64,000 nucleotides of DNA from Arthrobacter stackebrandtii (GTDB lineage: Bacteria > Actinomycetota > Actinomycetes > Actinomycetales > Micrococcaceae): NCBI RefSeq assembly GCF_017876675.1, contig NZ_JAGIOI010000001.1, positions 2,046,001-2,110,000 on the forward strand. Direction: 5' to 3'. The notes under the pieces are model-generated. The model did no database searches. It saw only the letters and a list, made by a program, of their open reading frames with translations, and was not told the DNA's origin. A program made the translations under genes and the position numbers. How positions within the stretch are numbered: the first letter of the stretch is position 1; each line of letters opens with the position of its first letter. This document shows, in pieces, positions 50,904 through 56,518 of the stretch.

Positions 50904-50971
50904 AAATGACACCGATCCCGCTTTCTGACACCGAGATATCGGCCTCAGAAAGCGGGATCGGTGTCATTTTT
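50904..50971. terminator. Two-way terminator with a 25-bp perfect stem
   Basis: Arms of 25 bases (50904-50928 and 50945-50969) pair perfectly, with AAA at one end and TTTTT at the other. The 16-base loop holds a further CCGA-GATA-TCGG dyad. It lies between the convergent DUF3151 and DUF2249 genes and has the T-run expected on the plus strand. Confidence 0.85.
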
Positions 50972-51003: not shown

Positions 51004-51777
51004 CTAGTTGCGGACCATGCTCAGCTTCCACAGCTCCGGGCCGTCCTCCACGTAGGAGACCTCGAACTTGCCGGGCGAGCGCTGCTCCAGCTGGGCCAGC
51101 AGGGGCAGCGGGTTGTGGTTGGCCACCAGCAGGATGCCCTTGCCTGTGTTCAGGCCCTCCAGTGCGCCGAAAATGGTGGCGTGGCGGATCGCGTGCGGGA
51201 TGACGCGGGTGTCGAGTTCGGCCAGGCCGGGCTCGTCGTGCCCGCCACAGGCGCAGCCGCCCGACGCCGGAGTTTGGGTTTCTCCCGGTGCACCGGCTTC
51301 TGCGGGGGCCGGCTTGGGCAGCAGGTCTGCGAGGGACACAGCGGTGTTTTGTGCCAGTGCCGGCAGGATCAGCTCCGTGGCCTCGGCGATGAAGGCCGTG
51401 GCCGCTTCCAGCAGGCGGCCGCCCGCGTTGACCATCTTGACCGGGGCTTCCTGGACTTCCAGGGCCTTGGCTGCGGACACGATCCGCTCATTGTGGCCCG
51501 TGGCGACCTTCGCCAGGACCCGAGACTCGGTGCTGGCGCCATGTTCCGGGAAGGCACCTGCCAAGGCGCCGGAGAGGGGAATGAGTTCCTTCTCGACAAA
51601 ATCTACGAGTGCGCCCTGGTCGGACTGGGCCAGTTCGGCGGCTGACGCGTTGCCGGCTGCTGCCACAAGATTGCCGTTCAGAGTGCCCAGCGTTCCGGCG
51701 ACTTCCGCCAGCCGGGTGCGGGCAGCTTCCAGTGAAGCGGCCTCGGCGGATGAGGAGGCAAGAACAAGATTATTCAC
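51004..51777 (-). CDS. DUF2249-domain protein of the nitrite reductase locus
   Basis: 257 residues from a GTG with AAAGG upstream. The last 75 residues form a DUF2249 domain (ELDTRVIPHAIRHATIFGAL, ANHNPLPLLAQLEQR, WKLSMVR). The N-terminal 150 residues are helical and could be a hemerythrin-like bundle, though the His pattern is weak. Between them lies Gly-Gly-Cys-Ala-Cys-Gly-Gly-His, a possible metal site. DUF2249 proteins often accompany NO and nitrite metabolism genes. It is divergent from the regulator with overlapping promoters. Confidence 0.78.
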   Translation of the reverse strand: MNNLVLASSSAEAASLEAARTRLAEVAGTLGTLNGNLVAAAGNASAAELAQSDQGALVDFVEKELIPLSGALAGAFPEHGASTESRVLAKVATGHNERIVSAAKALEVQEAPVKMVNAGGRLLEAATAFIAEATELILPALAQNTAVSLADLLPKPAPAEAGAPGETQTPASGGCACGGHDEPGLAELDTRVIPHAIRHATIFGALEGLNTGKGILLVANHNPLPLLAQLEQRSPGKFEVSYVEDGPELWKLSMVRN

Positions 51778-51814: not shown

Positions 51815-51856
51815 TGGAGATTCTGCGATTATATTACTACACTTAATTCCGTGGAA
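51815..51856. promoter_or_regulatory. Overlapping divergent promoters of the nitrite reductase locus
   Basis: On the minus strand, TTCCAC (51856-51851), 17 bases, and a perfect TATAAT (51833-51828) face the DUF2249 gene. On the plus strand, TGGAGA (51815-51820), 17 bases, and TACACT (51838-51843) face the regulator, whose GTG follows after seven bases. The two -10 boxes are four bases apart, so both promoters cannot be occupied at once, and one bound protein could control both. The region is strikingly AT-rich. Confidence 0.6.
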
Positions 51857-52666
51857 AATAAAAGCGTCACATCGCTGCCCCAGGGACCCAAGCCCAGCCG
51901 CGTCGAGCCGGTTGCGCCCATTTCCAAGGCCCGTGCGGCCATCCTGGCCTATCTCCGTGAAATTCCGGACACGCTCAGCGTCGAGCAGCTGGCGGCCCGC
52001 ACCGGCCAGCATGCCAACACGGTGCGGGAACACTTGGAGGCGCTCGTCTCTGACGGCCATGCCACCAAGACAGCTGCGCCCCGCGAGGGGCGGGGCAGGC
52101 CTGCATGGTTGTACGAGGCCGCCACTGTTCCCTCCGGCCCCGTGGGCTATGCCGCCCTGGCTGTGGCCCTGGCCCAGCACATTGCCGCCACCAGTTCCAA
52201 CCCCGCAGCCGAAGGTGAGGATGCCGGCCGCACCTGGGCCCGGGCCCTCCCCAAGAGTGGAAAGGCATCGGGGGGTGCGCGAGCCGGCACGAAGGTGCCA
52301 GGGCGCTCCGGTGTGGCGGCGTCCGGGGCCGCGCCCGCAGAAGCATCCCCAGCAGTACCCGCCACTGTCGCCCCGGCGGCGGCCAAGGCGGCCCGCGGCC
52401 GCGTCGTCTCGGCGCTTGGCCAGGCCGGGTTTGGCGTGCAGGGCAACCGGGACGCCACGGAGCTGACGCTGACCACGTGCCCCATCGTGGAGGCCGCGCG
52501 CGAGAACCCCGAGGTGGTGTGCGCCGTGCACCTGGGCCTGGCGAAGGAGCTGCTGGCCGACACCGGCCTGCCGGAGGACGGCGTGAGGCTGCTCCCGTTT
52601 GCCGGCCCCGGATTCTGCACGCTGCACCTCCCGGCCGCCGGCCCCGCCGCAAGCGGCACGGAGTGA
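51851..52666 (+). CDS. Winged-helix regulator with three conserved-type cysteines (SufR-like)
   Basis: 271 residues. An N-terminal winged helix (about 26-90; TLSVEQLAARTGQHANTVRE and the wing RGRPAWLY) is followed by an Ala/Pro linker and a C-terminal region with Cys210 (TTCPIVEAA), Cys224 (VVCAVHLGL) and Cys256 (GFCTLHL). That order and spacing recall SufR-type regulators, where the cysteines hold an Fe-S cluster. An Fe-S switch for O2 or NO would suit the nitrite reductase genes downstream. The GTG at 51851 is set by the leaderless promoter; the frame is open far upstream, which is misleading. The stop overlaps the next gene. Confidence 0.8.
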   Translation: MENKSVTSLPQGPKPSRVEPVAPISKARAAILAYLREIPDTLSVEQLAARTGQHANTVREHLEALVSDGHATKTAAPREGRGRPAWLYEAATVPSGPVGYAALAVALAQHIAATSSNPAAEGEDAGRTWARALPKSGKASGGARAGTKVPGRSGVAASGAAPAEASPAVPATVAPAAAKAARGRVVSALGQAGFGVQGNRDATELTLTTCPIVEAARENPEVVCAVHLGLAKELLADTGLPEDGVRLLPFAGPGFCTLHLPAAGPAASGTE

Positions 52667-53790
52667 CCGCCACCGGGCAGCGGCAGAAGCCCCGGCGGAA
52701 GGTCCCGTTTCTGCGCCGGCCGGGCTTCCGCCTGCTCTTCCTGCTGCCTGCCGGCGCCGCACTTTTGGTGGGGCTGAATGCCGGGTTGCAGCTGCTCGGT
52801 GCCGACGCACCGCTGAAAGTCGACCGCTTCCCCCAGGTTCACGGGATGCTTCTGGTCCTGAGTTTTGTGGGCACCGTGATCGCACTGGAACGGTCCGTGG
52901 CGCTGAACAGGGCCTGGGGCTACGCATCGCCGGCACTTCTGGGGATCGCCGGACTCCTGCTCGTCTCGCCCCTTGACTTGTGGATCGGCAAGACCGTCCT
53001 GCTGGCCGGAACCATCGCCATGGCCCTGGTCTACATCCCTCTGTGGCGCCGCCAGTACGACAACGTCGTCCTGATCCAAATCCTCGGCGCGGTCAGCGCG
53101 GTCGCGGCCGCGGCACTGTGGCTCCGCATCCCCGGAATCCCGGTCCTGCTGCCGTTCCTGGCAGCCTTCGTCGTTCTGACCATCGCGGGCGAACGCCTGG
53201 AACTGGCGCGCATCGGCATCGGCAGCCCCAAGGCGGAGCCGCTGCTGCTCACCGCCAGCTTCGGACTTCTTGCCGCCGCCCTCGCCGCCCTCCTCTGGCC
53301 AGCTGCCGGCTACCCCCTGTTCGGCCTGGCGCTCCTGGCCCTCGTCGCCTGGCTGGTGGTCTACGACGCCGCCCGCAAAACCATCCGTTCCGAAGGCCTC
53401 CCGCGCTACATTGCCGCGTGCCTGCTGGCTGGCTATGGCTGGTTGGCGATCGCCGGCGTCGTGCTGGCCGTGCACCAGGGCCCGCTGACCGGCAGCGCCT
53501 ACGATGTGGCCGTGCACTCCGTGTTCCTCGGCTTCACGATTTCCATGATCATGGCGCATGCGCCCGTGATCCTGCCCGCAGTATTGCGCAAGCCCCTGCC
53601 CTACACGCCAGGATTCTGGGTTCCTGCCACGCTGCTGCACGCATCGCTCGCGGTCCGGCTTGGGCTCGGCGACGCCGCCGGCATCCACGGCGCCTGGGTT
53701 TCCGGCGGCGTGCTCAACGTTGTTTCCATCCTGTTGTTCGCCGTCATGGCGGTCTGGCAGGCCACCCGTGCCCAGAAAGTTCCAGCATGA
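52663..53790 (+). CDS. Polytopic membrane protein of the nitrite reductase locus (NnrS-like)
   Basis: 375 residues from a GTG overlapping the regulator stop. Ten or more hydrophobic segments fill the protein after a basic N-terminus, with His residues in helices (FPQVHGMLL, AVHSVFLGF, MAHAPVILP) that could bind haem or copper. The pattern resembles NnrS and related haem-copper-type membrane proteins of denitrifiers. It overlaps the regulator and the NirK fusion gene by four bases each. Role probably in NO or copper handling; inferred. Confidence 0.7.
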   Translation: MTATGQRQKPRRKVPFLRRPGFRLLFLLPAGAALLVGLNAGLQLLGADAPLKVDRFPQVHGMLLVLSFVGTVIALERSVALNRAWGYASPALLGIAGLLLVSPLDLWIGKTVLLAGTIAMALVYIPLWRRQYDNVVLIQILGAVSAVAAAALWLRIPGIPVLLPFLAAFVVLTIAGERLELARIGIGSPKAEPLLLTASFGLLAAALAALLWPAAGYPLFGLALLALVAWLVVYDAARKTIRSEGLPRYIAACLLAGYGWLAIAGVVLAVHQGPLTGSAYDVAVHSVFLGFTISMIMAHAPVILPAVLRKPLPYTPGFWVPATLLHASLAVRLGLGDAAGIHGAWVSGGVLNVVSILLFAVMAVWQATRAQKVPA

Positions 53791-56444
53791 AGATCGGCTC
53801 AGCACCCCAGCCCGCCCCTGCCGGAAAGTCACCCATGAACCGCGCCGGATGGCACCTGCGCGCCAACGCCGCCGCCGTCGGGTGGCTCGTGGCGCTGGTC
53901 GTTGTGGTGCTTTTTCACCGGAACATCCCCGTGTCCGGCTGGCTCATGGTGCATTTGCTGCTGCTCGGCGCGGTGGCCAACTCAATCCTCGTGTGGAGCT
54001 GGCATTTTGCGCAGGCGCTGCTGAGAGGCCCGACGCCGGACAACCGGCTCATGGTTGCCCGGCTGGTCCTGCTCAACCTGGCTGTTGTGACGGTTGTGGC
54101 CGGCATGGTTTCCGGTGTTTGGGTGCTGACGCTGGTGGGCAGCATCGGGGTGGGCCTGGCCGTTGCCTGGCATGCCGTGGTGCTGGGCCTGCGCGCCGTC
54201 AAGGCCCTGCCTTCACGCTTCGGGCCGACTGTTTGGTACTACGTGGCAGCCTGCCTGCTGCTGCCGGTCGGTGCCGGGGTGGGCGCTGCGCTGGCGGCAG
54301 GCCCGGGCGGCGAACTGCACGCCCGGCTCCTGCTGGTCCACATGAGCGTGAACGTGCTGGGGTTTGTGGGCCTGAGCGTGCTGGGCACGTTGATGACGCT
54401 GCTGCCCACCATGCTGCGCACCCGGGTGGCCGACGGTGCTGAAAGCGTTGCGCGCCACGGCGCCGTCCCACTTTTGGTGGGCGTGCTGGCCATTGCCGGC
54501 GGCGCGGCCTCCGGGGCCATGGCGCTGAGCGTTATGGGCCTGGCGGTGTATATGGCCGGTGTTGTATATATCTGCCTTCCGCTGGCCAGGGTGGTGCGCA
54601 CCAAGGCGCCGGTGTCCTTTGCGCCGCTCTCCGCAGTCGCGGCCTTGGTGTGGCTGCTTGTGGCGCTGGTGTGGCTGCTGGTGCTGGTCCTGACCGCCGG
54701 GAGCTGGCAGGGGTTGCACCGGGGAATCGAAGTGGTGGCACCCGTGCTGGCTGTCGGTTTTGCGGCCCAGGTTCTGGGCGGCGCGCTCACCTACCTGGTG
54801 CCGGTGGTGCTGGGCGGCGGACCCGCGCTGGTGAAGCGCAGGACAGCCATCCTGGACAAGGCTGCGGTGTTACGGGTGGTTCTGGTCAATGCCGGGCTGG
54901 TGGTTTCGCTGCTGCCGGTGCCGAGCATCGTGCGGGTGGGGACCACGTTCCTGGTGCTGATCGGCCTGGCGTGGTTCCTGCCGCTGCTTGGTGTGGCACT
55001 GTTCGCCAAGGTGCCGGCTGCGGGAGTTCCCGCCGTCGGCGGCGGCACGGCAGCCGCGCATGATCCGGCCCCGCGCAAACGGTGGGGCATGGCAGCTGCC
55101 GGGCTCACCGCCGTCGTGCTGGTGGTGGTGGCTGGCGTCCTGGTGGACCCAACCGCGCTGAAGGGCGTGAACCAGGCGGCCGCGGACACCGGCGTGGCGG
55201 CCACTGGCCAGACCACCACCGTGGAGATGAGCATGAAAAACATGCGCTTCCACCCGGACAAGGTGGAGGTGCCTGCCGGGAACAAGCTGGTCATCAACGT
55301 GGTCAATGAGGATGACATGGTGCACGACCTCGTAACCGAGTTTGGCGCGGATTCCGGGCGGCTGTACCCGGGCCAGAAGGCCACTGTGGACGTGGGCGTG
55401 ATCGGTGCTGATGTGTCCGGGTGGTGTTCCCTGGTGGGGCACCGGCAGCAGGGAATGGTGTTCAGCATCGTGGCCGTGGGTGCGCCGGACACCGGCATCC
55501 CCGGTGCTGGCTCGTCCGCTGACTCCGGCATGCCCGGCATGGACCACGGAGCCGGGGACGGGCCCGCGGCGGATTTCGACTTCATGAAGGAGCCTGGTGC
55601 GGGCTTCACCCCGCACAGTGCGGTGCTGCCGTCGGCGCCTGAAGGAACAATGCATGAGCTGACCATGAAGGTCACGGAGGCGGAGCGAGAGGTGGCTCCG
55701 GGGGTCACGCAGAAGCTGTGGCTGTTCAACGGCATGGCGCCCGGGCCCACACTGCGCGGCAAGGTGGGCGACAAGTTCAAGATCACGCTGGTCAACGACG
55801 GCTCGCTGGGGCACTCGATCGACTTCCACGCGGGGGCCCTGGCGCCCGACCAGCCCATGCGCACCATCAATCCGGGGGAGTCGCTTTCGTACTCGTTTAC
55901 GGCAACGCGCGCCGGAATCTGGATGTACCACTGCTCCACCATGCCCATGAGTCAACATATCGCCAACGGCATGTTTGGTGCCGTGGTCATTGACCCGCCG
56001 AATCTGGCGCCGGTGGACAAGGAATATTTGCTGGTGCAGTCGGAGATTTATGCCGGGCCACAAGGCGGGGTGGCTGACTTGGCCAAGATTCAGGCCGAGA
56101 AGCCGGATGCTGTGGTGTTCAACGGCTACGCCAACCAGTACAAGTACGCACCGCTGCCGGCCAGGGCCGGGGAGCGGGTGCGGATCTGGGTGCTCGACGC
56201 CGGACCGAACCGGGCATCGTCATTCCATGTGATCGGCGGCCAGTTCGACACCACCTGGAGCGAGGGGCGGTTCTTGCTGGACGGCTCCGATGCCTCGGCC
56301 GGGGCGCAGGTGCTGCCGCTGGCCCCGGCGCAGGGCGGCTTCGTGGAGCTGTCCTTTCCGGAGGCGGGCAACTACCCGTTCGTCTCGCACAGCATGGTCG
56401 ACGCCGAACGGGGCGCGGCAGGCGTGTTCAGCGTTTCGAAGTAG
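53787..56444 (+). CDS. Membrane-cupredoxin-NirK fusion: copper nitrite reductase
   Basis: 885 residues, more than twice a normal NirK. Residues about 20-460 form a membrane domain of roughly twelve helices. A cupredoxin follows with type 1 copper ligands His513, Cys547, His552, Met557. After a Gly/Asp/Met-rich linker comes a two-domain NirK: type 1 ligands His676, Cys716, His724, Met729; type 2 ligands His681, His715, His868; catalytic Asp679 and His814. All copper ligands are present, so reduction of nitrite to NO outside the membrane is likely, with the extra cupredoxin as built-in electron carrier. The ATG overlaps the previous stop; the frame is open further upstream, but that part is a shadow of the preceding gene. 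Confidence 0.88.
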   Translation: MKIGSAPQPAPAGKSPMNRAGWHLRANAAAVGWLVALVVVVLFHRNIPVSGWLMVHLLLLGAVANSILVWSWHFAQALLRGPTPDNRLMVARLVLLNLAVVTVVAGMVSGVWVLTLVGSIGVGLAVAWHAVVLGLRAVKALPSRFGPTVWYYVAACLLLPVGAGVGAALAAGPGGELHARLLLVHMSVNVLGFVGLSVLGTLMTLLPTMLRTRVADGAESVARHGAVPLLVGVLAIAGGAASGAMALSVMGLAVYMAGVVYICLPLARVVRTKAPVSFAPLSAVAALVWLLVALVWLLVLVLTAGSWQGLHRGIEVVAPVLAVGFAAQVLGGALTYLVPVVLGGGPALVKRRTAILDKAAVLRVVLVNAGLVVSLLPVPSIVRVGTTFLVLIGLAWFLPLLGVALFAKVPAAGVPAVGGGTAAAHDPAPRKRWGMAAAGLTAVVLVVVAGVLVDPTALKGVNQAAADTGVAATGQTTTVEMSMKNMRFHPDKVEVPAGNKLVINVVNEDDMVHDLVTEFGADSGRLYPGQKATVDVGVIGADVSGWCSLVGHRQQGMVFSIVAVGAPDTGIPGAGSSADSGMPGMDHGAGDGPAADFDFMKEPGAGFTPHSAVLPSAPEGTMHELTMKVTEAEREVAPGVTQKLWLFNGMAPGPTLRGKVGDKFKITLVNDGSLGHSIDFHAGALAPDQPMRTINPGESLSYSFTATRAGIWMYHCSTMPMSQHIANGMFGAVVIDPPNLAPVDKEYLLVQSEIYAGPQGGVADLAKIQAEKPDAVVFNGYANQYKYAPLPARAGERVRIWVLDAGPNRASSFHVIGGQFDTTWSEGRFLLDGSDASAGAQVLPLAPAQGGFVELSFPEAGNYPFVSHSMVDAERGAAGVFSVSK

Positions 56445-56460: not shown

Positions 56461-56518
56461 GATAGCGCAGTTGTTGGACCGATTCGCCCCCCATTTTTCG
56501 TCCAACAACTGCGTTGTC
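56461..56518. terminator. Long inverted repeat after the NirK fusion gene
   Basis: Arms of 19 bases (56461-56479 and 56500-56518) pair at 17 positions over a 20-base loop. The arm contains GCGCAGTTGTTG, close to the arm of the hairpin at 49156-49228. It begins 17 bp after the stop, has no T-run following, and probably ends the operon. Confidence 0.68.

Follow-up and report, generated by a model that had tools for sequence, protein, structure and literature searches.

Introduction

Nitrite reductases of the plan described here have been reported before. The ~900-aa NirK of Propionibacterium acnes is the same fusion as that encoded in the window (the whole 64,000-nt stretch of DNA analysed in this study), a ~400-aa transmembrane domain followed by an extra cupredoxin and NirK with no architectural difference, and its transmembrane domain was described as being "of unknown function" (Helen 2016, PMC4770552, citing earlier genomic work). 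The enzyme of Hyphomicrobium denitrificans (PDB 2dv6) likewise has an N-terminal cupredoxin fused to a two-domain NirK and aligns with the window protein over both parts. In that enzyme the extra cupredoxin lies >15 Å from the core type 1 (T1) copper (PMC9358711), and a mutant of the extra cupredoxin has an activity above that of the wild type (PMC4770552). Actinobacterial NirK (clade 3 of PMC10999283) was prevalent in nearly all biomes sampled in that study, and genomes carrying it often lack Nor (PMC10999283). In Intrasporangium calvum, nirK transcripts increase as nitrite forms and nitrite is converted to N2O (PMC6349771). No account of the electron supply to actinobacterial NirK was found in the literature searched. 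In this study, we compared the membrane part of the fusion and the neighbouring genes with known folds and families, and suggest that the membrane domain resembles a stripped-down respiratory oxidase that probably feeds NirK with electrons straight from the membrane.

Results

A sequence-only reading of this DNA had described one 885-residue frame that joins membrane helices, a cupredoxin and a two-domain NirK. Translation of the window bears this out, as the 885-aa frame at 53787-56444 (+) runs without a stop. Its parts are as follows:

53787-56444 (+): fusion gene, 885 aa, membrane domain (MD), cupredoxin and two-domain NirK; open frame, same three-part fusion in 73/80 named loci
53787-55016 (+): MD, residues 1-410, 12 helices, predicted fold of haem-copper oxidase (HCO) subunit I; AF2 model and Foldseek PDB matches
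53952-53954 (+): codon of His56, candidate haem b ligand, helix 2, outer leaflet; invariant in 114/114, rotated profile alignment
54339-54341 (+): codon of His185, candidate second haem b ligand, helix 6, outer leaflet; invariant in 114/114, profile alignment
55071-55145 (+): 13th helix, residues 429-453, predicted to take the chain to the outer face; AF2 helix list and topology
55194-55511 (+): single cupredoxin, about residues 470-575, type 1 site H513/C547/H552/M557; PF13473, E 3.2e-10, ligands invariant
55584-56441 (+): two-domain NirK, residues 600-885, T1 site H676/C716/H724/M729, type 2 (T2) site H681/H715/H868, catalytic D679/H814; PF07732, E 3.7e-18, matches to copper nitrite reductases

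The copper ligands named in the sequence-only reading were found at those residues, and an alignment of 81 sequences shows very little variation in them: H513/C547/H552/M557, H676, C716, H868 and the catalytic H814 do not vary wherever they are covered, H681, H715 and H724 are kept in all sequences except one, and M729 is present in 67 of 75, with Leu in 7. All parts of a NirK active site (T1 His2CysMet, T2 His3, catalytic Asp and His) are in place, and solved copper nitrite reductases were matched by the NirK part in PDB sequence comparisons with E down to 1.9e-46 and the ligands in register. The best PDB matches of this NirK part were copper nitrite reductases, including AniA and the Hyphomicrobium enzyme. 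TIGR02376, the NCBIfam equivalog for NirK, was the best model but its cut-off was not reached (163 vs 296 bits), a score that marks divergence rather than a missing site. The order of a ~400-aa transmembrane domain, a cupredoxin with CX4HX4M and NirK agrees with the actinobacterial membrane NirK of Helen 2016, and within its own genome the fusion was the sole match at E <= 1e-10. Terminator-like inverted repeats were seen by eye 3' of a neighbouring gene (50908-50970) and 3' of the fusion gene (56463-56512); a simple consensus scan listed neither.

The fusion was matched in 22 of 38 relatives, and a scan of named genomes yielded 80 loci in many actinobacterial genera, including Arthrobacter, Sinomonas, Rothia, Sanguibacter, Oerskovia, Rhodococcus, Mycobacterium, Nocardioides and Brevibacterium. 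MD, cupredoxin and NirK lie in a single frame in 73 of these loci; the other 7 stop at contig edges or are without one detectable part. These counts rule out an assembly error or a chance fusion, an outcome that would have made the fusion unreal. The possibility that homologues are split at this point was borne out in part: in the window's class the fused form is the rule, whereas the phylum's other classes encode MD separately, as a protein of about 400-440 aa. In 6 of 24 loci (L051, L054, L059, L063, L064, L088) the separate MD gene adjoins, or is one gene away from, a gene for cupredoxin-NirK or a NirK-like protein. Such separate MD genes strengthen the functional link with NirK rather than removing it. 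MD-cupredoxin proteins without NirK (L133, L140) indicate that MD and the cupredoxin belong together as a unit, and a relative has a cupredoxin-NirK copy without MD (L084). Judging from these sequences, the exchange and rejoining of the three pieces fits a relay from MD through the cupredoxin to NirK. A search for spread of MD by plasmids gave no match.

Several single loci depart from the common pattern. The MD-free cupredoxin-NirK of L084 (8054-9379) is a second copy, as genome G018 carries the fusion too, and it is accompanied by a regulator and two DUF2249 genes. In G016 (L016/L082) the fusion gene is broken after the cupredoxin and query residues 594-709 are matched in two frames, which reflects either an assembly error or a gene that is broken and partly duplicated. 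In G026, a domain like the product of the gene upstream of the fusion (UP, below) is joined directly to cupredoxin-NirK without MD (L085:7341-10036); the frame is broken inside UP, the NirK C-terminus is replaced and an integrase-like gene adjoins. In L110 and L140, hydrogenase-like electron-transfer genes lie a few genes from an MD or MD-cupredoxin gene that lacks the NirK part. A record titled Sporosarcina beigongshangi (L092, NZ_JADHDY010000021.1) contains this actinobacterial locus, with 87-90% identity to the window, and is likely mislabelled or contaminated.

The sequence-only reading had called for structure prediction and a domain search of the membrane part, and had counted about twelve helices. 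The AF2 model (77 homologues; pLDDT 92.2, pTM 0.91) has 13, of which twelve form MD and the 13th (residues 429-453) was additional to that count. Foldseek placed its best 28 PDB matches all in subunit I of the HCO superfamily (cbb3, NorB, ba3, aa3), with E 9e-4 for cbb3 CcoN, TM 0.59/0.60 for NorB and best TM-scores of about 0.5-0.6 to the 12-helix subunit I fold. By prediction and fold comparison, MD is thus an oxidase-fold protein. Pfam, including PF00115, gave no match to the window copy, and no direct sequence match of MD to a solved structure was found; two stand-alone copies matched PF00115 at E 4.5e-6 and 2e-5, both under the gathering cut-off. In profile comparisons the second four-helix arc of MD matched HCO arc I at E 1.1e-8 (3.7e-7 with a wider HCO set) and reversed controls gave nothing; outside arc II the similarity is weak, and MD arc III is ambiguous. 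NnrS was dropped as the identity of MD since PF05940 gave no match at the gathering score; its threshold was reached in none of 150 sampled actinobacterial genomes. Another degenerate group of oxidase relatives was seen among actinobacterial PF00115 matches (L209-L214, L217, L218), which are without HxH and nearly all without the HH ligand motifs.

The search for haem-site residues that had been proposed led to two histidines. H56 and H185 are the only His invariant in all 114 MD sequences, fused and stand-alone, whose identity to the copy in the window is 21-90%, and in a 37-sequence set the invariant columns were only the start Met, these two His and four Gly. H44 and H129 are kept in fused copies only. 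Profile alignment pairs H185 with the His that binds the low-spin haem in HCO helix 2, and rotated alignment pairs H56 with the HxH motif of helix 10, at its second His; these pairings require that MD arcs I-II be read as HCO arcs III-I. In HCOs, the second His of this HxH motif binds the low-spin haem. The high-spin-haem and CuB ligands are absent from the profile alignment of MD, the His of HCO helices 6 and 7 being missing, and in place of the six His of an HCO enzyme (low-spin haem, high-spin haem and CuB) only two are invariant. From its sequence, MD is neither an oxidase nor an NO reductase. MD has no conserved Cys. A PxP motif common to MD and HCO helices 7-8 was dropped as evidence, as it is kept in fused and not in stand-alone copies. 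In 12 arc comparisons, HCO arc III was the best match of MD arc I 11 times and HCO arc I that of MD arc II 9 times; the in-register pairing came out best once for MD arc I and never for MD arc II. A circular permutation of MD relative to HCOs is a possible source of this rotated order, but the HCO arcs resemble one another, MD arc III is ambiguous and the rotated full profile had no clear gain over the native one.

The fusion protein has 22 K/R on the inside vs 3 on the outside, a strong positive-inside bias that, with the 13 helices, agrees with the earlier view of an enzyme fixed to the membrane and places the cupredoxin and NirK on the outer face in the predicted topology. His56 and His185 would lie 6 and 10 residues, respectively, into their helices from the outer face, on the same side as the cupredoxin.

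The fusion is the last gene of a putative three-gene operon with 4-nt overlaps, consisting of a winged-helix regulator, UP and the fusion, next to a divergent DUF2249 gene:

51004-51777 (-): DUF2249 protein, divergent, conserved neighbour; PF10006, E 1.8e-21
51851-52666 (+): winged-helix regulator, first gene of the putative operon, conserved C210, C224, H227 and C256; PF12840, E 8.7e-08
52663-53790 (+): UP, 375-aa membrane protein, 4-nt overlap with the fusion gene, invariant H60, H285 and H299; AF2 and Foldseek

UP lies upstream of the fusion in 67 of the 80 loci, with the 4-nt overlap in 48, and it matches no Pfam family. Its model (AF2, pLDDT 92.5) has HCOs as best Foldseek matches (TM 0.63 for the aa3 subunit, 0.63/0.54 for NorB), with H60 in helix 2 and H285 and H299 in helix 10, and on this modelling it is a second HCO-fold membrane protein with its own His pair. 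Homology between MD and UP by profile (E 0.0009) is suggestive only. A few UP members match NnrS weakly (E 0.049), far under the curated cut-off. Of 11 whole genomes in which the fusion has no UP alongside, 9 lack UP altogether, which rules it out as an essential partner and makes it accessory. The regulator and the DUF2249 gene are near the fusion in 64 and 63 of the 80 loci, respectively. The Cys/His set of the regulator is possibly that of an Fe-S or metal sensor; its relatives are also found near stand-alone MD genes (L061, L065, L068, L070).

A NarGHJI-type operon in the same genome, named from gene lengths and sequence, could make nitrite. The genome has a single PF00115 protein, adjoining oxidase-subunit and bc genes, and therefore no haem-copper NO reductase; since no globin was found in it either, NO is the likely product.

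Discussion

We give a probability of about 0.55, slightly better than even, to the reading that the fusion is a membrane-bound nitrite reductase with a built-in electron donor, in which electrons pass from quinol to haem b, to the cupredoxin copper and to NirK. The fusion, the ligands and the topology are established from the sequence, and the HCO fold by prediction and fold comparison; we infer a haem b at H56 and H185, quinol as the donor and a path through the cupredoxin. According to this proposal, the two His would hold one low-spin haem b, which would take electrons from menaquinol, with or without the adjacent HCO-fold protein UP as an intermediary, and pass them to the cupredoxin copper, the NirK T1 and then the T2 site, where nitrite would be reduced to NO. 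MD would thereby be an oxidase scaffold converted from a catalyst to an electron inlet. Direct feeding by quinol through the membrane domain and the cupredoxin had been raised in the sequence-only reading; it is still hypothetical, but now has a concrete candidate in the oxidase-fold MD with an invariant His pair at low-spin-haem positions. UP cannot be essential in this path, given its absence from 9 of 11 whole genomes, and the cupredoxin step is not guaranteed because of the distance and the more active mutant reported for the Hyphomicrobium enzyme. More tentatively, MD may be a circularly permuted, catalytically dead HCO that keeps only the low-spin haem b and serves as a menaquinol inlet wired through the cupredoxin to NirK. 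The fusion would then be a quinol:nitrite reductase in a single chain, and UP a further relative of the oxidases, with one haem and no permutation.

Alternatively, MD might be a mere anchor of oxidase ancestry, with the bcc complex feeding NirK through cytochromes or other carriers. In favour of this, MD has lost the catalytic ligands, a relative has a cupredoxin-NirK without MD (L084), and cupredoxin-NirK enzymes function elsewhere without such a domain (2dv6). We nevertheless consider this unlikely, as an anchor would not be expected to conserve two His throughout 114 sequences whose identity to the copy in the window ranges over 21-90%, and the MD kept as a separate gene in other classes is unable to anchor NirK there.

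It is rather doubtful that MD and UP act on the NO from NirK as NnrS-like haem proteins, whether by binding, sensing or channelling it: NO is the product of NirK, the genome is without a haem-copper NO reductase or a globin and a few UP members faintly resemble NnrS, but those matches are far under the curated cut-off and MD has no NO-reductase metal site, lacking the His that HCOs have in helices 6 and 7. Copper instead of haem at the His pair, with MD assisting copper delivery to the sites of the cupredoxin and NirK, seems improbable; every other cofactor in the chain is copper, and NnrS has been listed as a cuproprotein (PMC6769254), yet the pair occupies the position of the haem ligands of HCOs and MD is without a conserved Cys.

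If the quinol-fed reading is correct, one protein would make NO from quinol without bc1-type complexes or soluble carriers, an oxidase scaffold would have been reused as a plain electron wire and the unannotated UP family would gain a role. A domain "of unknown function" would also acquire a directly testable prediction, namely one haem b at H56 and H185.

The fusion architecture is already published; what appears to be new, in the literature searched, is what MD and UP resemble. Unlike the fusion, the Hyphomicrobium enzyme is a dimer of trimers with no membrane domain. The cytochrome-fused nitrite reductases of Chloroflexi (PMC8756737) likewise have a donor domain fused to a nitrite reductase, but the modules are cytochromes c and are mostly joined to NirS. 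NnrS (PF05940) is similarly a polytopic membrane protein tied to nitrogen-oxide genes and is faintly matched by UP, although neither MD nor UP reaches the family threshold. With HCO subunit I (cbb3 CcoN, NorB), MD has in common the predicted fold and the positions of the low-spin-haem His pair; it differs in having no high-spin-haem or CuB/FeB ligands, in an arc order apparently rotated by one and in being fused to a copper reductase.
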